A stretch of DNA of 64,000 nt from a virus. Position 1 is the first letter of the stretch, and the number at the start of each line of letters is the position of its first letter. The stretch lies in the IMG/VR virus record IMGVR_UViG_3300028920_000050, positions 37,395 through 101,394 of that record. The stretch is one strand, 5' to 3'. Made by a program: the position numbers and the translations under genes. Shown here in pieces: positions 5,874 to 60,740 of this stretch. Under the pieces are notes generated by a model that was not told where the DNA came from, did no database searches, and saw only the letters and a program-made list of their open reading frames with translations.

Positions 5874-6275
5874 CTATCTGCCACGCACCTGTCTTAGAAA
5901 TATCTGGTTTCCCTGTGGATTACGTTTACCTATCCTTGGCTTACGCTTACCTGTAGATAAGAAGCTTTCACCAAACCACCCCTCCATTTTTTTGATATAG
6001 GCAGTTCGGCTTTTTATATGAAGCTTCTTTTTATACATGCTTATAGCAAGGTTGGCTTTCTGAGGATCTGTTAAATGCGGATTATAGTAGTACTCGTGTA
6101 TTCCCTTGGTGTGTATACCAATATCCTTTCTCAGAGCTTTTACTTTTCCAAGTAACTTTGCTCTTTGATCCCCGCTTAATTTTGCACGTGCCCATCTGTG
6201 GGCTTTATTTAGAACGTACTTTCTGCCCCGTATAAGCTTAGTCATTCCTACACGGAGCAACTGTTTTTTAGGCAT
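5874..6275 (-). CDS. RWER-motif basic protein (133 aa)
   Basis: Shares the N-terminal module VGMTKLIRGRKYVLNKAHRW (residues 9-28), with the motif ending R-W-A-R here. The rest is Lys/Arg-rich and helical with no clear membrane segment. It is the last gene of the five-kilobase operon and is followed by a strong terminator. No known family recognised. The module in front of an unrelated body is what links it to its neighbours. Confidence 0.75.
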   Translation of the reverse strand: MPKKQLLRVGMTKLIRGRKYVLNKAHRWARAKLSGDQRAKLLGKVKALRKDIGIHTKGIHEYYYNPHLTDPQKANLAISMYKKKLHIKSRTAYIKKMEGWFGESFLSTGKRKPRIGKRNPQGNQIFLRQVRGR

Positions 6276-6280
6276 TAATA

Positions 6281-6733
6281 TTATGCTTTTCTTTTACGGA
6301 CAGCTATTCTGTGACCAAGACGATTAATTGCTATAGATCCCACAGTGAGAGTAGCCAATGCTGCAATTCCTTTTCCTGATGTCATCAAACCGGCAGATCT
6401 TCCTGCTATCCTCATACTTCTCTGTGCTTTCCTGTACATGGAAGCGCCTTTTATTAAACTGCCTCTTTTAAGCATCCGTTTGGCTTCACCACTCATACGT
6501 ACTGCACGTTTTAACTCAACATGGTGCATAATACGTGCTCCGCTTTCCACTGCCAAATGTGCTCCGCCAGTAATAGCACCAATAGCTCCAACACCTGCAG
6601 TTATCCCACCTGCAAGCTGTCGGCCCACACCAGCACGTTCCCATCTGGATGTTTTACCTAATTTATAGGTTCTTCCTTTTACTGTTTTGGTCATTCCATG
6701 TTGAAGCTTTCGTCTTTGTTTCATACGAGCCAT
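6281..6733 (-). CDS. RWER-motif basic membrane-segment protein (150 aa)
   Basis: The N-terminal module MTKTVKGRTYKLGKTSRWER spans about residues 14-33. A Gly/Ala-rich hydrophobic stretch follows (about 37-60), with a second near 118-140 (IAALATLTVGSIAI) and a basic end RKRKA. Predicted to be membrane-associated with basic flanks. The start overlaps or abuts neighbours on both sides (2-5 base gaps), typical of one polycistronic unit. Confidence 0.75.
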   Translation of the reverse strand: MARMKQRRKLQHGMTKTVKGRTYKLGKTSRWERAGVGRQLAGGITAGVGAIGAITGGAHLAVESGARIMHHVELKRAVRMSGEAKRMLKRGSLIKGASMYRKAQRSMRIAGRSAGLMTSGKGIAALATLTVGSIAINRLGHRIAVRKRKA

Positions 6734-6735
6734 AG

Positions 6736-7083
6736 TTAAGCCCTCCTTCTCTTTATTTTCTTTTTTTCTTTGATAACCATTATAAAACTGGCAATAGCAC
6801 CAAGGCTTGTGGCTATCTGCTGTATATAATCAAATATCATTGATACTATTGACTTCTTCTCAGCTGTTGTATTGGTAACACGTGAGTCCCTTCTTGGGCG
6901 CCGAGTTGTCCGATCTGCGGTTGCAGGAGCAGATCTCCTGTATACAAATGTGGAGTTATCAGTTTTAGCTTGTATGGAGAAATTAACAAGTTTCCTTCTT
7001 ATAAATGAAAGTGCAGCAAGAACAATAAATACAATACAGACTGTTGTTAATACTTTTAATTTAATATCTTTTATTTTACGCAC
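6736..7083 (-). CDS. Membrane protein in the RWER operon, without the motif (115 aa)
   Basis: Starts with GTG, with GGAGGATAC before it, embedded in the Arg-rich end of the upstream gene. It has an N-terminal membrane segment (KVLTTVCIVFIVLAALSFI), an Arg/Thr-rich linker and a second hydrophobic helix near 90-105, ending KIKRRRA. It lacks the RWER module but shares the basic, two-segment design. Function unknown. Confidence 0.7.
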   Translation of the reverse strand: MRKIKDIKLKVLTTVCIVFIVLAALSFIRRKLVNFSIQAKTDNSTFVYRRSAPATADRTTRRPRRDSRVTNTTAEKKSIVSMIFDYIQQIATSLGAIASFIMVIKEKKKIKRRRA

Positions 7084-7618
7084 GTATCCTCCTTCTCCTC
7101 GGCCTTCTGTAATTGGAAGCAGTAAGGTGAGTAGCTATTCCACGTTTCCGCAGATTTTCCATTGTACTTGGTTTCGTATCAAAAGATATACGAGATCCAG
7201 GCTTTAAGTCTCTATTCATCTGTGCAGTAATTAGAGTATTTACTACACCGAGCCTTCTTTCAGAAGCAGCTCTCTCCCGCTTTCTTGCTGACATCTTAAC
7301 CAAGAGTCCACTTACAAAAGCACCTGCACTTGTAGCAACTAAAGCCTTGTGTACTTTATAAGGTGCTTTCTTAAGTAACTTTGTTTTCTTACTGAGTGCT
7401 AAATAGCTGGCAGCTAGACCCAAACCAACCATACTCATGCGTTTTCCTAGACGGCCACGACTACTATAATCAAAACCTTCTATGTTCCTCTTACCTGTAC
7501 GTTCCCACCTATAGTTTTTATTCAGTTCATAGGTTATTCCGCTTACTGTTTTCTGTTGACCTATTTTAGCCTTTGCTTCTTTGGCATTTTTTCTGGCTCG
7601 TCTCTTGGTTGTTGGCAT
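7076..7618 (-). CDS. RWER-motif basic membrane-segment protein (180 aa)
   Basis: The module QKTVSGITYELNKNYRWER occupies about residues 22-41, behind a strongly basic N-terminus. Two hydrophobic segments follow (VGLGLAASYLAL near 64 and VATSAGAFVSGLLV near 92). The C-terminus is RRPRRRRIRA. SD GGAGGAG precedes the ATG, and the gene follows a 21-base perfect hairpin (7637-7680). Confidence 0.75.
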   Translation of the reverse strand: MPTTKRRARKNAKEAKAKIGQQKTVSGITYELNKNYRWERTGKRNIEGFDYSSRGRLGKRMSMVGLGLAASYLALSKKTKLLKKAPYKVHKALVATSAGAFVSGLLVKMSARKRERAASERRLGVVNTLITAQMNRDLKPGSRISFDTKPSTMENLRKRGIATHLTASNYRRPRRRRIRA

Positions 7619-7636
7619 GCACTCCTCCTTAAATTA

Positions 7637-7680
7637 AATGAAAGAGATAAATGTAAGAACTTACATTTATCTCTTTCATT
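7637..7680. repeat. Perfect 21-bp inverted repeat with embedded palindrome
   Basis: 44 bases form two identical 21-base arms separated only by AA. The centre is the palindrome variant TGTAAGAACTTACA (7652-7665). In RNA it would be a long A/U-rich stem between two genes of the RWER operon. It could act as a weak terminator, RNase III site or protein-binding site. Confidence 0.8.
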
Positions 7681-7703
7681 GTTCTGTCATTGTCGCAGTG
7701 ACG

Positions 7704-7892
7704 TTATGACATCTTGACAGGGCCGATACCGTTGTGTGCCTTCGGTGCAGGATACTTTCCTTTGTATTTGTCAATCTTATCTTTTGCACCGGGAGCCTTA
7801 GACGGACCAATCCCATTACGGGCAAGCCCTGGCCGGCCAACCTGGTGTTTCGCACCTTTGTTCTTCGTGTTTTTTGGAAATGTTGCTGCCAT
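7704..7892 (-). CDS. Small Gly/Pro/Lys-rich protein with NGIGP repeats (62 aa)
   Basis: I take the ATG at 7892 because AGGAGG precedes it; the longer reading to 7961 would overlap the upstream gene. NGIGP occurs twice (ARNGIGPSKAPGA and AHNGIGPVKMS), each after a Lys-rich stretch. It is probably unstructured and basic, in keeping with the operon. Function unknown. Confidence 0.65.
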   Translation of the reverse strand: MAATFPKNTKNKGAKHQVGRPGLARNGIGPSKAPGAKDKIDKYKGKYPAPKAHNGIGPVKMS

Positions 7893-7920
7893 AGTTTTCC
7901 TCCTGTTTAATATATTAAAC

Positions 7921-8379
7921 CTATAGTAGTCCGAGTTCTTTTTGAACTCGTTTACGTACACGACCTAGAGCTTCCCTTGTACGTTTAGCCTCAGGTGTAT
8001 TGACTGTACCATGTCGTTTGTGTGCCTCGTACACACTACTTAATTTCATATATCTTTTTCTTACTCCCGGATTTACTCGTCTAATCCCCTGCCTGAAAGA
8101 TGACTTGGCCCTTACAGTAACTTTACGAGTAGACAATATAGCAAGTGTAATAAAACCAGCAGTAATAGCTGCACCCTTGGCATACGCTTTAAGCCTCATT
8201 CTTCTTCTGTATTTTTCATAACTTATGGTTGGACCGGAAAAATATGCAGACTCTTTTAGCGGAACCTTTATATAATCTCTTTCCCATCTTGAAGTACGAC
8301 CAAGTTTATACCTCTTTCCTCTAACTGTTTTTGTAGCCCCTGGTCTTATACGTTTTTGATCATACTTCTTTCTTGCCAT
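7921..8379 (-). CDS. RWER-motif basic membrane-segment protein (152 aa)
   Basis: The module ATKTVRGKRYKLGRTSRWER spans about residues 14-33 and is nearly identical to that of the 150-residue paralogue. One hydrophobic segment (AAITAGFITLAIL, about 70-84) lies between very basic stretches, and the C-terminal half is a charged helix. No family recognised. Confidence 0.75.
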   Translation of the reverse strand: MARKKYDQKRIRPGATKTVRGKRYKLGRTSRWERDYIKVPLKESAYFSGPTISYEKYRRRMRLKAYAKGAAITAGFITLAILSTRKVTVRAKSSFRQGIRRVNPGVRKRYMKLSSVYEAHKRHGTVNTPEAKRTREALGRVRKRVQKELGLL

Positions 8380-8398
8380 AATGAAATCCAGATATTAA

Positions 8399-8833
8399 TT
8401 ATTTATTTCTTTTTCTTCGTTTATATGTAGAGTGTGCGATCTTTGTAGTAACAGCTGTACCTAATGCTACAGCCACACCTTTCTTACCGTGTTTAGCAAT
8501 AGCTTTGCTTAGGGGCTTACTGGCTTTTCGTATAGCTGCTCCTGCTCTGCTTATTGTTTTACTTGCTTTACCTGCCTTATGAGAACTACTCTCTACTCTT
8601 TTACCGAAGCGTTTAACCTCTTCGCCAGCTTTCTTCCCCGCAGTTTTAAAACCGCGGTCTACTGCTTTGTTTAGACCTTTAGCCTTACCGACTGCTCCTG
8701 TCTTTTGTACCTTGACCCACCGCACAACTCCTTTGCGGATCTCTGTCAAACGGAGCATAGCACCAGCTGCTCCTTTCTTCATAGCACCGATTTTCTGGCC
8801 GGCAGCTTTCTTTATTCTTTTCATTCTTGCCAT
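8399..8833 (-). CDS. Lys/Ala-rich histone-like protein, degenerate RWER module (144 aa)
   Basis: The composition resembles histone H1 tails: Lys, Ala and Gly dominate. Around residues 29-44 LTEIRKGVVRWVKVQK is a weak echo of the module (T-x-I-R-x-G, R-W). One hydrophobic stretch lies near the C-terminus (GVAVALGTAVTTKIA), followed by YKRRKRNK. It could bind DNA or membranes. Membership of the RWER family is uncertain. Confidence 0.7.
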   Translation of the reverse strand: MARMKRIKKAAGQKIGAMKKGAAGAMLRLTEIRKGVVRWVKVQKTGAVGKAKGLNKAVDRGFKTAGKKAGEEVKRFGKRVESSSHKAGKASKTISRAGAAIRKASKPLSKAIAKHGKKGVAVALGTAVTTKIAHSTYKRRKRNK

Positions 8834-8855
8834 TTGTTATCTCCTGTTTTTTATA

Positions 8856-9764
8856 TTAACGCTCTCTTCGCTGATACTCATAATCACGAAGAGCACGTTC
8901 AGTGTAATACCGTCTTTCCATAAGTGTTTTACGTATCCTATAGTATGTAATGCCAGATAGAATACCTAAAGCAACTCCGTAAGTAGGTCTCTTTTGTATA
9001 AACTTAAGACCAGATAAAGCAGAGTTATTAAAATGATATGTAAATCGTTTTGCTCCCCGGAACTGAAATCCCATCTTATTACCTATGGGAACCTTCTTCG
9101 CCAAAGCCTGAGCCATAGTTTTAGTTCTGGTTATTTTCTGTGCTCTTTTTATCTGATTTAGATGTAATGACTGCAGTGGCTTGGCTACCCTGGCTGTCAT
9201 GTTAGATATTCCCTGATGAACTGTTTTCCAAGGTTTAGACTTACGTATTCTATCAAGCTCAAGAACTTTAACAAGATTATTACGGAAGCCACCAAATCCT
9301 GTACCTCTCCTTCCCTTCCGTCCAATACTTACAGCTGCACCATAGATACTACCAACTACCCACAGACTCCTCTCCCTCCTGGTTAAAGCCGCACGCTTGA
9401 ACATATAATCTTCACGTAATTCTGATTTTGTTTTTCCGTGGTATGTCTTTACAGCAGATACTCTCTTTAGTCCCTTAACTGCTTCTGGATTACCTGGAGT
9501 TTCTTTGAAGAAATCTGATTTTGGATTTTTATGAATAAAACCTGACCTGTCCTCTGCTACACTTACAAGATCCTGCTGTTCTTTTGGACGGACAATAGGA
9601 GGTGCATGATCCTCCATTACTGGAGGTTTATTATTTGGAAGCCTGTAGTCACGTTCCCACCTGTGGGATCTCCGCCTGAGTTTGTACCTTAGACCTTTTA
9701 TAAATCTTATTGTTCCCAGCCTGGGTTCTTCTTTCTTTTTTGTTCGCTTCCTACCATTTGACAT
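8856..9764 (-). CDS. Largest RWER-motif protein (302 aa)
   Basis: The module LGTIRFIKGLRYKLRR then SHRWERDY occupies residues 16-40. The protein is very basic throughout, with hydrophobic segments near 135-152 (LWVVGSIYGAAVSIG) and 268-285 (YGVALGILSGITYY). It ends QRRER. First gene after the operon promoter, with SD AAGGAG. Its size and design recall internal, ejected virion proteins, but no homology supports that. Confidence 0.75.
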   Translation of the reverse strand: MSNGRKRTKKKEEPRLGTIRFIKGLRYKLRRRSHRWERDYRLPNNKPPVMEDHAPPIVRPKEQQDLVSVAEDRSGFIHKNPKSDFFKETPGNPEAVKGLKRVSAVKTYHGKTKSELREDYMFKRAALTRRERSLWVVGSIYGAAVSIGRKGRRGTGFGGFRNNLVKVLELDRIRKSKPWKTVHQGISNMTARVAKPLQSLHLNQIKRAQKITRTKTMAQALAKKVPIGNKMGFQFRGAKRFTYHFNNSALSGLKFIQKRPTYGVALGILSGITYYRIRKTLMERRYYTERALRDYEYQRRER

Positions 9765-9859: not shown

Positions 9860-9888
9860 ATTATAATGTAAAATCTCAATTATTTCAA
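9860..9888 (-). promoter_or_regulatory. Sigma70-type promoter of the RWER operon
   Basis: Minus strand -35 TTGAAA (9888-9883, overlapping the last codons of the upstream gene), 17-base spacer, -10 TATAAT (9865-9860), start near 9853. Together with the terminator at 5793-5836 it defines a discrete unit covering 9764-5874. Confidence 0.7.
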
Positions 9889-10914
9889 ATTAAATCTCCT
9901 CTTTATAATCGAAGATCCCTCTTTTAGCGTATGAAATCCACCATATACGCTCTGGTAATTTACAATAAAATCAATATACCTGTGCCTAAGCTTCTCATCT
10001 ATGGGCCTGTTCAAGTAGTCATTTATGATAAATGATATATCATCTATGTACCCCACCTCTTTATAGTTAACAGACGGTATCCGATAACCAAGCCCAAGCG
10101 GAGTAACTACCGGCAAATTACTGAAGTACAGTACTTTCTTATTACTGAGTATGGCTTCAGCCAGGGAGGATGAATTGAAAGACACAACTATCTGTGCTTC
10201 TCGTATGTGTGTAAAATGATTTGCATTTTTATTAAACACAACTCGCTTGTCTTTAATAGGCACATAGTCATAAGTGAATCCACGCTTTTTATTATAGGCA
10301 CTTGGATGTGGTTTCACCACCAGAATAAAATCAGTATAAATATTTTTTATTATATTAAATACTGTGCGAACCATATCATTTGCTCTGTAAGGGTGTCCAC
10401 CAACAGATGTAATTGATTTATCTGTTGATTTCTGTAGTGGAAAATAAATAAGGGGTACTTTGTAGTTAGCCAAGGTCCCGTTCTTGTCATTATTATGTGC
10501 TACCCAATGCAGTTCAAACAAACTCACAAGCTTGTTTACTTTATACGGATAATTATTGAATGTCATATCCGTAGTATGACTGTTGAACATAGACATAGGA
10601 GCAAGCAGAGATCCACAATACTTATTATGATCCTGCCTGTCAATAAACTGATTGAACCTGAATGGTGACCTTTCAACAAATAGCATATTTCTGTAAGTAC
10701 TCTTTTTCATCAAGTCTACAAAAGATGATGGTATATTTCCTTTCTGATTGAAGAACTTTTTATAACACAAGTATCTATTCTTCTTCCCCTTATCCTTTAA
10801 ATAAATAGAATAGAAGTCATCAGTTGATACGTGTTCTATTTTTAAACCGAGTGGTTTAAGGTACGTATCAATTATATTGAACTCACAATTATAGATATTA
10901 GAATATACTTTCAT
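9880..10914 (-). CDS. Capsule-synthesis-like glycosyltransferase, copy 2 (344 aa)
   Basis: Has the C-terminal GT-B-like pattern seen in KpsC/KpsS-type and glycerophosphotransferase-like enzymes: a strand plus HP (VVKPHP, near residue 200), then SFNSSSLAEAILSNKKVLYF near 250 with a Ser/Glu-Ala donor-site motif. Homologous along its length to the gene just upstream, with the same 344-residue length, so the pair is a tandem duplication. The start overlaps the upstream stop by four bases. It probably transfers a sugar or sugar phosphate to a phage or host glycan; acceptor unknown. Confidence 0.65.
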   Translation of the reverse strand: MKVYSNIYNCEFNIIDTYLKPLGLKIEHVSTDDFYSIYLKDKGKKNRYLCYKKFFNQKGNIPSSFVDLMKKSTYRNMLFVERSPFRFNQFIDRQDHNKYCGSLLAPMSMFNSHTTDMTFNNYPYKVNKLVSLFELHWVAHNNDKNGTLANYKVPLIYFPLQKSTDKSITSVGGHPYRANDMVRTVFNIIKNIYTDFILVVKPHPSAYNKKRGFTYDYVPIKDKRVVFNKNANHFTHIREAQIVVSFNSSSLAEAILSNKKVLYFSNLPVVTPLGLGYRIPSVNYKEVGYIDDISFIINDYLNRPIDEKLRHRYIDFIVNYQSVYGGFHTLKEGSSIIKRRFNLK

Positions 10915-11945
10915 AAGCCTAACTTCTTAACAAGAAAAATCTTAAGATCTTTTCTTGCTGTAAAATTGTTAAAGAAAGACATCTCATTGATTATAAAATA
11001 AACATACTTGTTGTACGCTTCAGTATCTATATCTGTCATAAGATAGTCTCTTATAACCATAGCATTTTCATTTAGAAACCTCCCACCCGCATAATTCCAT
11101 GACGGTACTCGGTATCCTATATCATTACAGTCCACTACAGGCATGTTTGAGAAATATAATATCTTTTTATGAAGAAGTGCTGCTTCTGCTAAAGCAGATG
11201 AATTAAAACTCACAACTACTTTGGCTGCAGTGAGCAGTGCATAGTGTGATATGGAACTTGTAGTTATAACACGATTATCATCAAAATCAAATATATATTT
11301 ATAGTTTCCTCTATGGTACGGATGCTCACGCACTACAATAACAAAATCATTGTACATACGTGCAAACAATTTATAGATGACATTTATCATCTCATTAACA
11401 GGATAGGTCTCTGCTCCTCTGGATCTGAGTGATATATCCTGTGGTAATTGTAGCGGAAGGTAAACAAGGTTTCTTGTTTTTGGTATGTCTCCTGTGTCTT
11501 TATTTAAACCTAACCAGTGCTTCCTGAACCTTGACACAGTAGCATTCATGTCAGCTTTATATGTGAACTTATTGAACTTATGTAAATTACTATAATTCAC
11601 AAAAGAACTTATGTTGGCAAGCATTACTCCGCAGTTCCTGGAATTAATATTATCATCAGTTCCCTGTTTAAAACGAAATGGTGGTTTCTCAATAAAAAGT
11701 AAATGTCTAAAATCATCGAGCCTGAAAATCTCCCTGAAGTGATCGTAGGTCTTTACTTTAGTTCCATGCAGGAAGGTCTTACCCATTACATACATGTTTT
11801 CTTTGTCCTTGGCAGCTCTCCTATACAAATCCTCCCCCGCCGGCGGACGTTCAATGTCAACAGGCAACTTCAGTCTCTTAACATTACGTTCTAAGAGAGT
11901 GGCCTCCTCACTCTCTGAGTATATCATTATAAGCTTTTTCTTCAT
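10911..11945 (-). CDS. Capsule-synthesis-like glycosyltransferase, copy 1 (344 aa)
   Basis: Paralogue of the following gene. Shared landmarks are FIEKPPFRF near residue 85, VVREHPYH near 200 and SFNSSALAEAALLHKKILYF near 247. The motif order fits a GT-B fold with the active site in the C-terminal half. It overlaps the methyltransferase gene upstream by four bases, so it is coupled to it. Family-level function (glycan assembly) is reasonable, but the substrate is not known. Confidence 0.65.
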   Translation of the reverse strand: MKKKLIMIYSESEEATLLERNVKRLKLPVDIERPPAGEDLYRRAAKDKENMYVMGKTFLHGTKVKTYDHFREIFRLDDFRHLLFIEKPPFRFKQGTDDNINSRNCGVMLANISSFVNYSNLHKFNKFTYKADMNATVSRFRKHWLGLNKDTGDIPKTRNLVYLPLQLPQDISLRSRGAETYPVNEMINVIYKLFARMYNDFVIVVREHPYHRGNYKYIFDFDDNRVITTSSISHYALLTAAKVVVSFNSSALAEAALLHKKILYFSNMPVVDCNDIGYRVPSWNYAGGRFLNENAMVIRDYLMTDIDTEAYNKYVYFIINEMSFFNNFTARKDLKIFLVKKLGL

Positions 11946-14840: not shown

Positions 14841-14986
14841 CTTTTTTTCCTCTTGTTGGATTTTTTATGAGGACTTTTGTATCCACTCGCATGAGCTGCC
14901 CTCTGGATTTGAAGTGCTTTTGCTTTTGTTTTGAAAGGGCCACGTGACCCCCAATACCATCCGTTTGCTTTTTTAACTACCGGCAT
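14837..14986 (-). CDS. Small basic protein with NGWYWGSRGPF motif (49 aa)
   Basis: Start at 14986 in a TAATG overlap with the upstream gene, stop overlapping the SH3 start by ATGA, so it is clearly coupled. NGWYWGSRGPFKTKAKALQ near residues 8-26 is a Trp-rich head followed by a basic tail (KKSNKRKKR). Short proteins of this type recur in phages as hypotheticals; function unknown. Confidence 0.75.
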   Translation of the reverse strand: MPVVKKANGWYWGSRGPFKTKAKALQIQRAAHASGYKSPHKKSNKRKKR

Positions 14987-15174
14987 TATTTCATTCTCCC
15001 TATGGGTCCTCTCCCTTTTCCCACACCAAGTCCCATTCCTCTCCCCCTACTCCTTATTTTACCTCCGGGGCAACACTCCCATCTGTGATTTTTATTTAAA
15101 CGATATAACTTATTATTAATCCTTTTAGTAGTTCCTACTTTAAGTCTAATATCTTTGTGTTTATTTCTAAGCAT
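14986..15174 (-). CDS. Short RWER-motif protein downstream of the terminase (62 aa)
   Basis: Carries the module GTTKRINNKLYRLNKNHRWE (about residues 14-33) some five kilobases from the main cluster, followed only by a Gly/Arg-rich tail. SD AGGAG. Being almost the bare module, it may show the minimal functional unit. It sits directly after the terminase gene, which fits a role in packaging or the capsid but does not prove it. Confidence 0.75.
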   Translation of the reverse strand: MLRNKHKDIRLKVGTTKRINNKLYRLNKNHRWECCPGGKIRSRGRGMGLGVGKGRGPIGRMK

Positions 15175-15186
15175 AACTTCTCCTTA

Positions 15187-16914
15187 CTATTTTACTCTCT
15201 CATATACTGATGTCGGAGCACGAGAAAGCTTTCTACCAAAAGCATCCCTCTCATCTCTCACGACTGTTTGAACTGGACCTCTACGTCTGAAATCATTAAC
15301 TACCAGTTCTTCATTCTTGATCTCTTCTACCTCTCCCATTTCTGGAATATAGGCTGCCCAGGTCATAAGGCTGAGACCATCAAAATAGTCATCGTGTGCA
15401 CCCTTGCGCTCCGGGTGGGCGCAGACAATATATTGATTTTTAGTTTTCTTCTCGATAGTTACTACTTCCTTGGCAAGTTCCTTTACCTCTTTATCTACTC
15501 GTGCTGTTCTACTCCACGGTATCCATACACGTCCGCCCTTCATTTCAACAATAAGGTTCTTGGCAAGTTTACTCTTCATGGGTATGCTGTATACAATGGG
15601 TTCCATCTCCATTTCGTATTCATACTTATTTACAAACCTGTCACCTATGGCATCCCCTACACCAGTACTATCGTATGCCATCTTTATAGGTATTCCACGT
15701 GACTCTCTTATAAAGTCATCAATGACATCACAGATTTCATAAAACTGAGTATCATAGTCTGTTCCTCGCCAAGAATAAATACCTAACACCTGCTTAGGTG
15801 GGGCAATAGTAAGATCTACTCTCAAGTTCCAGTGCTTAGTTCCTATAACAAGTACTGTCTTGTCGTCCTTCTTGGCAAAGTCCAAGCCGAAGTACAGTTC
15901 TGCTCCACGCTTAACTACATGCCACCCAAGTTCAAGCTCTGTTTTCTTGTTCTTGTTAAGCATCTTGTCATCAATAGCCATCCCGCCTTCAAACAGCCAT
16001 TTAAGACAGTAAGACTTCTGGAACTCGTCACTGTCCTCACCAAGTTCTTTCTTCTTTTTATCTATGTACGCTTTATAGTATGGGTTCTCGCGGATACCAT
16101 CTTTGTAGTCAGACACAAAGGTACATCTTTTATATCCCCTCACTTTCTTTCTTCGGGCCTCTCCATTGGTAATAAGCTTCCAGAACTTGTTCTTTGTTTC
16201 TCCCGCCACACCAAAAAAGAACTCAGAAGCGTTCCACGCAGCACCCATAGGTGAAGCATCAGCATCATAACGAGCAGTGTCTATGTCTTGCGCTTCATCA
16301 TATTGAAGTACTTTAAACGTACCAGACTCTACTTTTGCCTGTGGGTGCAGTGAGTACCACTGCATAATAGATCCGTTTGTAAGTTTTATCTTGTCATTTA
16401 TTTTACGCTTGCCTACGTTGATAGCTTTATCAGCCATTATCATCTCAGCATATTCAGTCTCAAGGATCTTATACGTACCTTCCCACACTGCAAGTGCTTG
16501 GTACTCGATGTTAGACATGTGACCTATCCACACACCGTTATTTTTTGGAAAATCAGGATTATAAAACTTAAGAAGTGGTTTGTGTACTGTATGAAAAAGC
16601 TTTGCTATGATTGGAATGAACAGCATAGCTGCGGCATCAAGGGACCTGAACAGCTCAGTCTTACCTCTCTGCCTTGAGAAAGAAATACCAACAGATGCCG
16701 GCTCATCGTTAAGCAGGATCTCAAAGAACCTGTAAGCTATCTTTTTTTGGAGGGGGTAAAGATAAGGAAGTCCACTGAACTGCTCTGTTACCGTGACAAG
16801 TCTGTCACATATCTCTCCAAGATTGAACTTCGTTATTTTAATTCGATCTTTTAAGACATATTGTTCATCATCAGTCAGTGCTTCTTTCATGTCAGCTACA
16901 TCAGATTGCTTCAT
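15187..16914 (-). CDS. terL: Terminase large subunit
   Basis: Motor of DNA packaging. Walker A is SFSRQRGKT (residues 79-87). Walker B with the catalytic Glu is VLQYDEAQ (202-209). The RNase H-fold nuclease shows D345 in YFGLDFAKKDDKT, D415 in AYDSTGVGD and the final acidic patch HDDYFD (507-512). At 575 residues, full length. It lies some 42 kb from the portal, past the fibres, and is preceded by a palindrome and two very basic small genes. No small-subunit gene is obvious next to it. Confidence 0.93.
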   Translation of the reverse strand: MKQSDVADMKEALTDDEQYVLKDRIKITKFNLGEICDRLVTVTEQFSGLPYLYPLQKKIAYRFFEILLNDEPASVGISFSRQRGKTELFRSLDAAAMLFIPIIAKLFHTVHKPLLKFYNPDFPKNNGVWIGHMSNIEYQALAVWEGTYKILETEYAEMIMADKAINVGKRKINDKIKLTNGSIMQWYSLHPQAKVESGTFKVLQYDEAQDIDTARYDADASPMGAAWNASEFFFGVAGETKNKFWKLITNGEARRKKVRGYKRCTFVSDYKDGIRENPYYKAYIDKKKKELGEDSDEFQKSYCLKWLFEGGMAIDDKMLNKNKKTELELGWHVVKRGAELYFGLDFAKKDDKTVLVIGTKHWNLRVDLTIAPPKQVLGIYSWRGTDYDTQFYEICDVIDDFIRESRGIPIKMAYDSTGVGDAIGDRFVNKYEYEMEMEPIVYSIPMKSKLAKNLIVEMKGGRVWIPWSRTARVDKEVKELAKEVVTIEKKTKNQYIVCAHPERKGAHDDYFDGLSLMTWAAYIPEMGEVEEIKNEELVVNDFRRRGPVQTVVRDERDAFGRKLSRAPTSVYERVK

Positions 16915-16930
16915 TGAACTTCCTTATCTA

Positions 16931-16950
16931 AAATGTAATATCTTACATTT
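16931..16950. repeat. AAATGTAATATCTTACATTT palindrome variant
   Basis: The stop codon of the upstream Lys-rich gene forms part of its flank (TAA-ATGTAAGATATT on the minus strand). It lies 17 bases before the terminase start. Confidence 0.8.
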
Positions 16951-17200
16951 ATGCCTGGGAGTAGAACTCCATAACGGCAGATGTTACATCAACATGCTCA
17001 TCAACAGGTTTACCTGTATTAAGCTTTTTGTTGACGAAGGCTATTAACCTCATTGTCCCTTTCGGGGGGCCTTTTTTAGCAGGCGCTTTTTTAGTAGCCG
17101 ATTTCTTCTTTACTTTAGCTTTAGGTTTAGCTTTTCCTTTCAGCTTATCCTTAACCTTGGCTACTACACTTTTCTTTTTTTTTGGTTTTGCTTTCGCCAT
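16949..17200 (-). CDS. Lys/Ala/Pro-rich histone-like protein (83 aa)
   Basis: The first 48 residues are nearly all Lys, Ala and Pro (KKKKSVVAKVKDKLKGK, then KKSATKKAPAKKGPPKG), as in histone H1 or HU-tail segments. A short domain follows (TMRLIAFVNKKLNTGKPVDE). It could bind or condense DNA. Next to the terminase, so a packaging or internal-capsid role is possible; unproven. Confidence 0.75.
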   Translation of the reverse strand: MAKAKPKKKKSVVAKVKDKLKGKAKPKAKVKKKSATKKAPAKKGPPKGTMRLIAFVNKKLNTGKPVDEHVDVTSAVMEFYSQA

Positions 17201-25342: not shown

Positions 25343-26266
25343 CTAAATAAGTAGCTCCGGTAAAAAGCTATTCGCCCACTGCTCTCCTATTATCTTGTAG
25401 GTTTGAAGATATTTGTTTTTAACTTTATCGAGATCCATCAGTTTATTCGGTATTCTCCCGTCTACCCTGAAAACATTAAGACCAAGTTCCTCTGCATCAT
25501 TAACCTGTTCCCATATAGCCTGCTCACGTGCTATCGGTAAGAAGTTTTTTATCTGACGTATAAACCCTTGTCTCTCTTCTGTTCCAAGATTAGTATAGCC
25601 ACACCCACAGGAGAGTATAAAATAATTAGATCCTGCTTTAAGCCTTCTGGTTTCTATGTAAGCTTGCATAAGTGTACAACTTTGTGTACCACATCCGCCA
25701 TCTGTCCATATACCACCCTCTTTATCTCCGGACTTAAGAACATCTTTTTTGTCCTCAAAGTACCCAAAATAAGTCGGCGCTGAATATGTTGCCATAACAG
25801 GAAAGGCAGTAATAATATCTTTATACTTTTTCTTATAAGATTTAAAAAAATGAGTAAGCTTAGAGTCCTTCATATTAATTCCAGTAACAACAAGCTTTAT
25901 CTTTGCTTTATTCATAGGAAAATGAAGATACTTTAACATAAGAGCATCAGCGTACCCACGCTTGTACCTAGATCCTGTAAACCATGTTGCAGGATTAAAA
26001 AGCCCAAGAAATCTCTTCTTAAATATCTTTTTAAGTTCCTTAAGATACATATCTAAGATCTTTGATGCAGGCATACCCGAAGCAATAAGAGCAGCGGTTA
26101 TTCCTCCGGTAGATGTGCCTATAACCAGATCAAATATCTTGTGACATGGTTTACCCAGTGCTTTTTCAAGTCTTGAAAGAAAAGCAAGAAACATTACACC
26201 CTTCGCCCCGCCACCGTCAAGCTGAAGTACTTTTAACTTTTTATTATATTTAGATTTTAATTTCAT
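25343..26266 (-). CDS. Patatin-like phospholipase (307 aa)
   Basis: A lipid acyl hydrolase with all key elements: oxyanion-hole loop DGGGAKG (17-23), nucleophile Ser52 in GTSTG, and catalytic Asp189 in WTDGGCG. The family acts on phospholipids through a Ser-Asp dyad. Placed with the muramidase and a coiled-coil membrane protein, it may attack host membranes at lysis, though a role in lipid remodelling during infection is equally possible. Rare in phage lysis regions. A palindrome precedes its ribosome site. Confidence 0.85.
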   Translation of the reverse strand: MKLKSKYNKKLKVLQLDGGGAKGVMFLAFLSRLEKALGKPCHKIFDLVIGTSTGGITAALIASGMPASKILDMYLKELKKIFKKRFLGLFNPATWFTGSRYKRGYADALMLKYLHFPMNKAKIKLVVTGINMKDSKLTHFFKSYKKKYKDIITAFPVMATYSAPTYFGYFEDKKDVLKSGDKEGGIWTDGGCGTQSCTLMQAYIETRRLKAGSNYFILSCGCGYTNLGTEERQGFIRQIKNFLPIAREQAIWEQVNDAEELGLNVFRVDGRIPNKLMDLDKVKNKYLQTYKIIGEQWANSFLPELLI

Positions 26267-42751: not shown

Positions 42752-42771
42752 AAATGTAAGATCTTACATTT
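42752..42771. repeat. AAATGTAAGATCTTACATTT palindrome
   Basis: Perfect 20-base palindrome. The stop codon of the tape measure gene lies in its flank, and the next ribosome site follows at once. Confidence 0.85.
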
Positions 42772-54386: not shown

Positions 54387-55301
54387 TTAGGCAGTATAAA
54401 TATTTACGATATTTTCGGAAGTGATAATTCCCGAACCGTACATACCGTAGTGTGCCAGAGCACGCTTCCTCTGGAAGTCCTCAATACCGTTATCCCGCAT
54501 TTCAACGGGAAGCCCTACAGCGTAGCCTACGGCATATTCACCAAAGATGACAGCCTGATAGACGTTTACTGCGGCAGAGCCGGTAATGATGGGCATGACA
54601 GTTGTTTCAATGAAGATAACATTATCGTACATGCCAGTTTCGCCCAGGAAGATGTTCCTTGCGCCTGCGTACTTGTTTGCAGATACCCACTCAGCATCAT
54701 CTTTGAGGCCACGTGCCTGATGGGGATGTAAGAAACAAACAAAGTACTGACCGACAACCTCATAAGCGTTGTTAGTCCGCAGAACCTCAACCGCATCCTT
54801 AATAATTGTGGTGTTGAACAGATCGGTTGCTATAATTTCATTTACAGCAGTCCGTCCGTTAGGAAACACCGTATTAAGAGATGAGAGATAAGAGTTCTTT
54901 GCCAGCCGGTCAGCAAGGTGACCATAGTTCCGCCCGAGAAGAACGGAAGCGTCCTGCATCGTGTTTGTAAACGAAGCTTTCAACAGCTTGTTTGAAACTG
55001 CTACCGCTTTTGCGTACTCAGTAACAGTGATCTGGATGCGGGAGCTTTCCAGTGCCTCGGTTTCAATCGGAATATGTTCCTGCAGTTCTTCGTCACCTTC
55101 GGAAAGGTTGTTATACTTTGTAAAGTTGATCGTCAGACCGGGGGCATTAAGCAGTTCCGTTTTCTGATTAACGAACTGCTGAAAGCGAAGTACAGGCTCA
55201 GCCTGGAACAGAAGCTCCATGCTGTATACTTCTTTAATGTTGTTAGGGAGTGCTTTATACCCTGAACCAACATCGGTTGCAGTTGCAGTAATAAAGTTCA
55301 T
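54387..55301 (-). CDS. Major capsid protein, N4-gp56 family
   Basis: Main shell protein, HK97 fold. Family landmarks: EPVLRFQQFVNQKTEL near residue 36, LTINFTKYNNLSEGDEELQE near 56, ITVTEYAKAVAVSNKLL, and YFVCFLHPHQARGLKDDAEW near 190. 304 residues with no long N-terminal delta domain, because a separate scaffold gene precedes it. SD GAGGAG. Confidence 0.85.
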   Translation of the reverse strand: MNFITATATDVGSGYKALPNNIKEVYSMELLFQAEPVLRFQQFVNQKTELLNAPGLTINFTKYNNLSEGDEELQEHIPIETEALESSRIQITVTEYAKAVAVSNKLLKASFTNTMQDASVLLGRNYGHLADRLAKNSYLSSLNTVFPNGRTAVNEIIATDLFNTTIIKDAVEVLRTNNAYEVVGQYFVCFLHPHQARGLKDDAEWVSANKYAGARNIFLGETGMYDNVIFIETTVMPIITGSAAVNVYQAVIFGEYAVGYAVGLPVEMRDNGIEDFQRKRALAHYGMYGSGIITSENIVNIYTA

Positions 55302-55338: not shown

Positions 55339-56253
55339 TTAACCAGTCATCTCCGTCGAGCTTTTTGCTGCTTCAGTGAGTAATTCCTTTCTTTTCTGCT
55401 TATAGTCTTTCATGTCGGTCGGGACTTGAATGTTGCCATTCCCCGCCGCACTCGAATTGTCGATGTTTTGTCCAGCATTTTGCGGTACACTAATTTTTTG
55501 ATCGGAAGGGGATGCTCCCTGATCTGCACCAGTAGCTTTTCTAATATTAGCAATAACATCCTGCAACTGCTCAGGCTTAACTCCCAGTGTTTGTGCAAAA
55601 GCACTGGTCTGTTGAGCCTTAACAGCTTGTGCTGTCTTGAATGATTCATTTAATTCATCTATAGTATTACCTTGGACAAGCTCAGGAATGATATCGTCAC
55701 GTACTTTCCCGTCAGGTGTTTTGATAATAGTATTCCTGTACGATGAGAGATCATTCTTATTAAGCCGTTCTGTTATAGAACCAATAGCCTGTGTAACTTG
55801 TGTTATCTGGTTGTTGAACATTTCATTCTGCTTGCGAAGTGTCTCCGCAAGTTGCTCATCAGGCTTAAGTGAATTGAAGTTTTCCTGGTCCTTTTTTTTC
55901 TGAGCTTCCTGTGCTGCTTTCTCAGCATCAGCTTTCGCTTGAGTGAGAGTCTGAACCTGCTTTGTCAAGTTTTCGATCTCACCGTAATGCTGTGACTTAA
56001 AAGTTTCAGCAGCAGTCTTTGTTGCGTTCTCGGTAATATTTTTAGTAAGATCAGGGAGTAAGCCACTTACTGACTCCGCCACGATCTTAGTTATGTCCTC
56101 AGTTGTTGGTGCTTTTGGCTTATTGTCTCCGCCATCTGCTGGTTTCTGATTTTTTTGCCATGCTTCTAACGCTTTGTTTACAACTCCGGTAATAGCTTCA
56201 GCTGTTAATCCTACGTTATTAGTGTTTCCACTGTCATCATTAGTCTCTGCCAT
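55339..56253 (-). CDS. Capsid scaffold protein (304 aa)
   Basis: Highly charged and helical, with a central coiled coil (IENLTKQVQTLTQAKADAEK, residues about 95-140) and a low-complexity C-terminus ending near KELLTEAAK. Lies immediately before the capsid gene, the usual scaffold position. No protease domain seen, so a separate or no protease is used. Confidence 0.8.
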   Translation of the reverse strand: MAETNDDSGNTNNVGLTAEAITGVVNKALEAWQKNQKPADGGDNKPKAPTTEDITKIVAESVSGLLPDLTKNITENATKTAAETFKSQHYGEIENLTKQVQTLTQAKADAEKAAQEAQKKKDQENFNSLKPDEQLAETLRKQNEMFNNQITQVTQAIGSITERLNKNDLSSYRNTIIKTPDGKVRDDIIPELVQGNTIDELNESFKTAQAVKAQQTSAFAQTLGVKPEQLQDVIANIRKATGADQGASPSDQKISVPQNAGQNIDNSSAAGNGNIQVPTDMKDYKQKRKELLTEAAKSSTEMTG

Positions 56254-58868: not shown

Positions 58869-60740
58869 TTATTCTTCGTTAGCACCTAGTTTGGCATCTG
58901 CCTGTTTATCTACACCACCATCTTGTGATTGATTTGTAACCTGTGTAGCAGGAGTAGAACCTCCTCCACTAGAACCAGGAGGTACATTGTCAAACCCACC
59001 ATCCATAGGAGGCTCAAGTATAGCGTTCTTCTTAGAGTCATGCATAGCTTTACGAAGTTCATCACGTTCTATTTGAGCAAGATATCCATCAGGATCTGAT
59101 ACCTCAAGTTTCTTAAGAGCGTCACGATCAGTTATAAGAGACAAGTCTTTACGATCACGTATATTACCTATCTCTGTGTACTCATCTTTCGGAAGAGAAT
59201 AAGCAATACCAATATCCATGTCCTCAACCCAACGAGCATAGATACCTTCCTTCATAAACTTAAAGTAATCGAACACACCTGTTTCATTCTTTGTCTGAAC
59301 AATGTCCACCTTAAGTACAAGTGCAGCCATAAGCTTTGAGAACTTATCTACAGGAAATGCTTCAGGATCTTTTCGTGCCTTATCAAGGGCTTCCTTTAAA
59401 TCTTTAACTCCCAGGTCAGCTCCTATGTTATCTATGGTCTTGTCAACATGAATAAAAAGACCATTATACAGAAAGCCATAGCATATAATTATACGATTAA
59501 GTTTTTTAAATCCTTCTATATAATTATCCTTGCACATATCTGTGGCCCGAATAAGAGAATAATATTCTGTGTGAAGGGCGGAACCTGATGTATTTGAAAT
59601 GGCACTTTCAGTCCCACCAAGGGATCTTGCATGCACACCAGTAGCTTCATGCAGTGCCTGTTTTATTAATTCAAGAAACTTTGTAGCTGCCGGCAGATCA
59701 GTATCGAGAGTAACATGCTTCAGATCTGCACCTTTAGGAATAGCATAAGTTTTGTCTGGACCCACCACCATTGACTTAAGAGAAGCTCCTGTCAAAACTG
59801 TCATTGGTGAAGCGAAGTACCTTACAATACCACGTATATCGCGAACAATATCGTTGTAAATAAAATTAAGATTATATGATTTCTGAACGTCAGACTCTCC
59901 GAAGTCGCTGTTCTTTACCTCAGAGTTGACAATATGAGCAATAGGTATATAACCAAGATAGTTCGGAGCGGGGTATCCCATTACAAGTTTATCATCCTTG
60001 TAAACAGCTACTGTGGTTTTTGTCCACACTTCCCGCAACGTGAACGAATTACCATCATCAGTAACACCGTCCATGAATACTTCACACTTAACCATCTCCT
60101 TCCTTGGAGTGTAAGCATAGGTTGGGAATACACGCTTCTCATCAAGAACGAGTATCTCCATTTTAAGATTGGCAGGATCGAAACTATCAGTTAAAACATA
60201 AGCCCCTTCATCAACAACCTTGTCCTGGCTCTCATCGAGAACAAGATGAAGCTTCTCTATCTCTGATGTTTCCTGTGAGATAGCCGCTGTATCATCAGCA
60301 ACTCCTTCACTTTCAAACTTATTATCCTTGGTAACTTCTCTGCCTACAGTATCCACATAAGGGATCACTTTTATAAAGGCATCACCAGCTACCTTACCTG
60401 TACGGACGATCTCCTTAGCCTTCTTGTCACGGCCATTGAGTTCCCATACTTTGTTTACAAAATCTTGGAGGGTTTGGTTGTAAGGAATATAGGGCTTGAT
60501 GCCCTTGCCAACCATGAAGTGAACCAGAGCGTCAATGAACACTCTGTTATAATTGATGTCAGCCGTTATAAGTCTGCCGTCATTTTTGTCCTGCAAATTA
60601 TCGGCCTTCGTTCTATAGGCTATCCAGAACTTACGGTAGTTATTAACTCGCTCAGTGTGCTGCTTCTCAACATCAAGGTCTGTAACCTTAAACTGTAGAG
60701 CATACCTTTTATAGAACTCATTAGCTGTGTTAACTGCCAT
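58869..60740 (-). CDS. Portal protein (623 aa)
   Basis: SPP1-type portal: RLITADINYNRVFIDALVHF then MVGKGIKPYIPYNQTLQDFV near residue 65-95, and clip/stem helices around 300-350 (KSYNLNFIYNDIVRDIRGIV). Twelve copies form the DNA channel. The C-terminal 60 residues are Gly/Pro/Gln-rich and disordered. It abuts the head morphogenesis gene with a 3-base gap. Confidence 0.88.
   Translation of the reverse strand: MAVNTANEFYKRYALQFKVTDLDVEKQHTERVNNYRKFWIAYRTKADNLQDKNDGRLITADINYNRVFIDALVHFMVGKGIKPYIPYNQTLQDFVNKVWELNGRDKKAKEIVRTGKVAGDAFIKVIPYVDTVGREVTKDNKFESEGVADDTAAISQETSEIEKLHLVLDESQDKVVDEGAYVLTDSFDPANLKMEILVLDEKRVFPTYAYTPRKEMVKCEVFMDGVTDDGNSFTLREVWTKTTVAVYKDDKLVMGYPAPNYLGYIPIAHIVNSEVKNSDFGESDVQKSYNLNFIYNDIVRDIRGIVRYFASPMTVLTGASLKSMVVGPDKTYAIPKGADLKHVTLDTDLPAATKFLELIKQALHEATGVHARSLGGTESAISNTSGSALHTEYYSLIRATDMCKDNYIEGFKKLNRIIICYGFLYNGLFIHVDKTIDNIGADLGVKDLKEALDKARKDPEAFPVDKFSKLMAALVLKVDIVQTKNETGVFDYFKFMKEGIYARWVEDMDIGIAYSLPKDEYTEIGNIRDRKDLSLITDRDALKKLEVSDPDGYLAQIERDELRKAMHDSKKNAILEPPMDGGFDNVPPGSSGGGSTPATQVTNQSQDGGVDKQADAKLGANEE

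Follow-up and report, generated by a model that had tools for sequence, protein, structure and literature searches.

The window analysed here, the last 64 kb (64,000 nucleotides) of the 101,394-bp IMG/VR virus record IMGVR_UViG_3300028920_000050, encodes six small basic proteins that carry a common module of ~25 residues near their N-termini. We call this the RWER module and the proteins RWER1 to RWER5 and RWER-mini (Table 1). An earlier note on this DNA had proposed that five genes of one operon and a separate 62-residue gene share such a module, and the six genes are found where it placed them, all on the minus strand. With the further members described below, the module has the consensus L-x-x-G-x-T-K-x-x-N-G-x-T-Y-x-L-N-x-N-H-R-W-E-R, in which G, Y, L, R and W are nearly invariant; it falls inside the first 41 residues in all six window proteins. 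Besides the five module genes, three module-less genes belong to the operon as well.

A regular expression of the module, run on all open reading frames (ORFs) of at least 40 amino acids in six frames of the whole record, matched these six genes and nothing else, if one loose match to an unrelated 45-aa ORF is set aside. As an independent test we used a profile hidden Markov model trained solely on modules of other phages, without the window sequences; five of the six genes scored 22.6 to 38.3 bits, as compared to 7.3 bits for the best of 20 shuffled proteomes. The remaining gene, RWER1, scored 5 bits because one extra residue is inserted before its RW (YKLRRRSHRW); when the profile was built from the five remaining window modules, its score was 14.4 bits, attained in 0 of 1000 shuffles. 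The observation of a module with six members is thus confirmed. The gene at 8399-8833, in which a faint trace of the module had been suspected, is at chance level (663 of 1000 shuffles score as well), and we rejected it as a seventh member.

The likeness between the six could be a chance convergence of a beta-hairpin-like pattern in Lys/Arg-rich proteins. Such convergence does occur: a tblastn search with the consensus matched phosphoglycerate mutase (GRYYAMDRDNRWDR; MT835488 and the gpmI records of PLSDB), matches that we discarded as convergent false positives. However, the scores given by a profile built without the window, the position of all six modules near the N-termini, and the scan of the whole record, in which no other ORF matches, make this explanation very improbable indeed, and for practical purposes we rejected it.

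Table 1. Features of the window. Positions count from its first letter; bit scores are from the profile trained on modules of other phages, unless stated otherwise.
Feature	Position	Strand	Description
RWER1	8856..9764	-	302-aa basic protein, pI 11.2, net charge +49; first operon gene; N-terminal module with one-residue insertion
Module of RWER1	9645..9719	-	LGTIRFIKGLRYKLRRRSHRWERDY; 14.4 bits (profile of the five remaining modules)
RWER2	7921..8379	-	152-aa basic protein, pI 11.6, net charge +35; one hydrophobic Gly/Ala segment
Module of RWER2	8272..8346	-	RPGATKTVRGKRYKLGRTSRWERD; 22.6 bits
RWER3	7076..7618	-	180-aa basic protein, pI 11.7, net charge +36; strong Shine-Dalgarno
Module of RWER3	7490..7567	-	IGQQKTVSGITYELNKNYRWERTG; 30.4 bits
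RWER4	6281..6733	-	150-aa basic protein, pI 12.0, net charge +30; AlphaFold2 model made
Module of RWER4	6629..6706	-	LQHGMTKTVKGRTYKLGKTSRWERAG; 30.4 bits
RWER5	5874..6275	-	133-aa basic protein, pI 11.3, net charge +29; no hydrophobic segment
Module of RWER5	6180..6257	-	LRVGMTKLIRGRKYVLNKAHRWARAK; 38.3 bits
RWER-mini	14986..15174	-	62 aa, made up of the module and a Gly/Arg tail; its gene directly follows that of the large terminase
Module of RWER-mini	15067..15144	-	LKVGTTKRINNKLYRLNKNHRWECCP; 38.1 bits
Operon gene without module	8399..8833	-	144-aa basic protein
Operon gene without module	6736..7083	-	115-aa basic protein; strong hydrophobic segment near N-terminus
Operon ORF without module	7704..7961	-	85 aa; true start possibly at an internal ATG (MAATFPK...)
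Large terminase	15187..16914	-	phrog_5909; directly upstream of RWER-mini
Major capsid protein	54387..55301	-	phrog_1357
Portal protein	58869..60740	-	phrog_64
Tape measure	at 42770	-	PHROGs match

The six proteins range from 62 to 302 residues, with isoelectric points (pI) of 11.2-12.0 and net charges of +17 to +49, and several contain a moderately hydrophobic Gly/Ala-rich segment. Their bodies, compared with one another, have no significant similarity beyond the module (best E 0.06), so that the description of a common short head on unrelated bodies is borne out. None of the six matched Pfam above any cut-off. Shine-Dalgarno-like sequences precede most of the genes, with weak ones ahead of RWER5 (5874) and RWER2 (7921).

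Structure prediction, which the earlier note had proposed as a check alongside a profile search, gave a beta-meander in both proteins that we modelled with AlphaFold2. In RWER-mini (30-row alignment) the three strands span residues 16-19, 22-26 and 32-34, with a mean predicted local distance difference test score (pLDDT) of ~90 over residues 11-30; in RWER4 the same meander occupies residues 15-33 (pLDDT ~96) and is followed by helices at 55-89, 93-114 and 120-149. The module is thus predicted to be a self-folding mini-domain, a three-stranded beta-meander.

We found no known curated family to which the module could be assigned. The best match of 27 modules in PHROGs was phrog_1610, a two-member family of unassigned function (E 0.0039, not significant), and the best matches in Pfam (0.015) and NCBIfam (0.045) were to unrelated families. 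A profile search of the PDB gave nothing significant (best E 0.041, a plant NDH subunit), nor did Foldseek against the PDB, where a 34-residue phiKZ capsid chain at E 0.25 was treated as noise. A literature search for the core string HRWER together with phage found no paper. The claim that the module belongs to no described family therefore holds for Pfam, PHROGs, NCBIfam and the literature search on the core string.

To collect relatives we used degenerate DNA patterns of the module over IMG/VR and the GTDB species genomes, and these found further members in other phages and in bacterial contigs. The carriers are phage polyvalent and head proteins, the annotations of the giant ones resting on profile matches. 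In locus L017 the module lies near the N-terminus in three neighbouring genes, encoding a MuF protein (L017:535), a giant ART-PolyVal protein in which it occurs three times, and a protein similar to zeta toxins. It stands ahead of ART-PolyVal and MuF in L027, between a Mu-type portal (Portal_Mu) and an inorganic pyrophosphatase (InPase) in L015, and between an adenine methylase and an SNF2 helicase in L009, L034, L036 and L046. In L097 it comes after the domain of a probable head maturation protease (phrog_9427, E 7e-5; the resemblance is weaker in L093), and in L092 it follows a Dps-like ferritin domain. Seven records have modules shortly ahead of ART-PolyVal domains, repeatedly in several of them. 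Phages of a 76-93-kb group contain 3-5 confident copies per genome, the carriers being the protease-like protein, the Dps-like ferritin and further proteins. Bacterial genomes of 3-8 Mb have only 1-3 copies each.

Context statistics were computed on 36 module-bearing virus records, 24 of which have a MuF or Mu-type portal match. In 19 of these 24 a module lies within 6 kb of the MuF or portal match, as compared to 12.1 expected from random placement (P ~9e-4; this assumes a uniform null, treats as independent records that are not, and counts several MuF matches that fall short of the family cut-off). Five records have the module and a MuF or portal match in the same open frame.

Two further features were seen in this collection. 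In L092:9030-11648 and L108:8015-10024 the Dps-like ferritin domain (Pfam Ferritin, E 7e-12) shares its polypeptide with the module and an extended basic tail; such a protein is possibly a packaged DNA-protection protein. In the 76-93-kb group a second common sequence, Y-x-L-x-G-x-x-Y-x(6-8)-G-I-V-L-R-K-A, lies upstream of the module (L092:3881-4972, L092:9030-11648, L097:3290-6244, L099:5239-5973 and L108), and the protein of the Leptolyngbya-type locus L046 (L046:6345-12836) has a start similar to it.

The earlier note had suggested packaging into the capsid with DNA and ejection into the host envelope among the possible roles. The module occurs on head proteins and on proteins thought to be injected, and this idea therefore gains independent circumstantial support, from MuF, the Mu portal-InPase protein, the probable head maturation protease, the ART-PolyVal proteins and the DarB homologues. 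Our preferred reading, which we hold to be about evenly balanced between right and wrong, is that the RWER module belongs to proteins carried inside phage virions and docks this cargo into the head; it is possibly a handle that the protein cargo of phage heads has in common.

The methylase-helicase carriers were compared with P1 DarB by blastp. All eight that yielded hits proved to be DarB homologues (best hits E 9e-34 to 3e-97), and in the family alignment their module columns coincide at one site between methylase and helicase. At this site the cultured Bordetella phage PHB04 has a clear module (VGDTKVVDGVTYILQGRPPRWHRVDEF; 15.8 bits, E 4e-5), phage D6 a degenerate one (VGDKRLVGGIWHEFDGLKWVKD), and Thermus phage Lalka27b the sequence AEGTVSADGQYVLRNHRWHRLQ, while the DarB relatives in LE1, Mwe-JY07 and Y7 show none there. 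P1 DarB itself has an internal, degenerate copy at residues 369-394 (DEGEMRLINGVWQKYAGGRWIESDA). By profile, 2 of 1000 shuffles are as good as this copy when cultured relatives are included in the profile and 27 of 1000 when they are not; by profile alone the P1 copy is thus weak, and its strength lies in the position of the best match, at the homologous site. One and the same profile finds the module of the DarB homologues, which lies after the methylase domain, and that of the window proteins; the latter, however, have neither methylase nor helicase, are short and basic, and carry the module near the N-terminus.

P1 is also the strongest counter-evidence. P1 DarB was identified by mass spectrometry as a virion head protein, its first 30 residues alone are enough to bring a reporter into the capsid, and a consensus among the Dar proteins was sought by the authors of that study and not found (PMC9024508). 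Since the first 30 residues suffice and the module copy is internal and degenerate, the module is not the P1 packaging signal; the two differ in place and in sequence, and we rejected the module as the P1 capsid-targeting sequence. In P1 another signal packages DarB, with the module internal, and we therefore see a fair chance, though one well below even, that the module works after delivery. It would then be a spacer or interaction domain of injected proteins that, for example, keeps its carrier on DNA or on a replication or repair protein, and other signals would be responsible for packaging. The presence of several module copies in one giant protein would agree with this. So would a QxxLF motif (often SPGQLGLFGG): 16 of 70 distinct modules have one no more than 60 residues away, as compared to 0.83 expected from shuffled flanks, a 19-fold excess in which related sequences are counted. 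The motif, seen in L092, L094, L099, L107, L108, L110, L017, L030, L038, L046, L048 and L022, resembles the bacterial beta-clamp-binding motif and would fit a role on DNA in the host. However, none of the six window proteins was seen to have a QxxLF beside its module, RWER-mini consists of little else than the module, and the module also sits on head proteins (MuF, portal and the probable head protease).

The polyvalent proteins of phages and conjugative elements (Iyer et al. 2017, PMC5512222) include proteins with ART-PolyVal, InPase, MuF and DarB-like domains in which we find the module; they are multidomain, unlike the window proteins, which are small and lack two or more disparate domains. 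The main-text passages of Iyer et al. that were searched describe no such module. LPD36, which those passages describe as an alpha-helical domain N-terminal to the methylase, was rejected as the same element on both counts (PMC5512222). The capsid targeting sequence of the T4 internal proteins IPI-IPIII is likewise a short N-terminal element common to otherwise different small proteins, and by analogy we propose that the RWER module may work as it does. The T4 sequence has ~10 residues and is removed by the prohead protease (PMC10229621), whereas the module is a predicted folded domain of 25 residues and is often internal. In the alignments the residues after the module are not conserved, and no conserved cleavage site was seen there. 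Ejection proteins of the P22/T7 type and of giant phages are a further comparison, since basic or hydrophobic-helix proteins that are kept in the head and leave it with the DNA would resemble the RWER proteins. No sequence similarity was found, and we know of no common tag of the RWER kind described on ejection proteins.

Several further observations weigh against a docking role in the head. The module is near the N-terminus in the six window proteins, but elsewhere it often lies inside the protein, between domains and several times over, and such internal repeats within a polypeptide would suit a linker or interaction domain no less than a tag. The patterns used for collecting relatives favour NG...NxNHRWE forms, many of the records are related, and all are possible fragments. 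In the window phage no MuF match was found by profile search, and on the record ~45 kb separate the operon from the genes for capsid and portal. Phages BS162P1, MT835482 and BRock, the nearest by capsid protein (38-41% identity; the nearest cultured ones, Bacteroides phage BS162P1 and Streptomyces phage BRock, at 38-39%), were checked for the module and none was found. The module-less genes of the operon encode proteins that are very basic too (pI 10.5-12.0).

The last two points, together with the high pI and net charge of the RWER proteins and the predicted helices and hydrophobic segments of their bodies, would also suit another explanation: that these are lineage-specific late proteins that condense DNA or act on the envelope in the infected cell, not virion components, their module having been acquired from a polyvalent gene. 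This explanation leaves the module on head and polyvalent proteins elsewhere unexplained, and RWER-mini directly follows the large terminase; we consider it unlikely. Regarding the envelope, the hydrophobic helices in some bodies are the only hint of envelope or membrane targeting.

No close relatives of the phage by terminase or capsid protein were found in IMG/VR, and no direct homologues of RWER2 in viral contigs; in the phage collection RWER1 had no direct homologue and RWER2 only a non-significant match (E 6). The operon (9764-5874) comes after methyltransferase, radical-SAM-like and polysaccharide-type genes, named from reading their sequences. Two tandem related 344-residue genes (9880-10914 and 10911-11945), likewise read as capsule-polysaccharide-type, lie between the methyltransferase genes and the operon. 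Just upstream of the terminase gene there is an H1-histone-like, Lys/Ala/Pro-rich protein of 83 residues (16949-17200), and among the tail genes a patatin-like protein (25343-26266; DGGGAKG and GTSTGG, read from the sequence).

Returning to the docking reading, its starting point is a module near the N-terminus of six small basic proteins, encoded after the large terminase; their genes share the minus strand with the late structural genes (portal, major capsid protein, tape measure and large terminase by PHROGs). The analysis shows the module, its predicted fold, its recurrence on head and polyvalent proteins and its conserved place in the DarB family, while docking, packaging, ejection and action after ejection are inferred. 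The module would dock onto a fixed partner in the prohead interior (the scaffold, the inner capsid face, the portal or another cargo protein), and the different bodies would in this way be taken into the head. A candidate for the scaffold of the window phage is encoded at 55339-56253. The basic bodies might lie against the packaged DNA and be ejected with it, and the helical Gly/Ala-rich segments of some of them could then enter the host envelope. More tentatively, as a possibility that we favour less than that of a cargo module as such, the RWER beta-meander may be a phage-wide address label for cargo docking, read by a conserved part of the prohead, which loads effectors, methylases, Dps, MuF fusions and small basic proteins for injection; the window phage would then have its barest form, as six separate small proteins.

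Phages inject proteins along with their DNA, and to our knowledge signals that mark such cargo are known for few cases, such as the T4 internal proteins and P1 DarB. The RWER module is common to DarB homologues, MuF fusions, ADP-ribosyltransferases and small basic proteins. As a short and recognisable sequence, it offers a way to compile candidate cargo of uncultured phages, and the question of targeting becomes testable with fusions of ~25-30 residues and a small internal deletion in P1 DarB.

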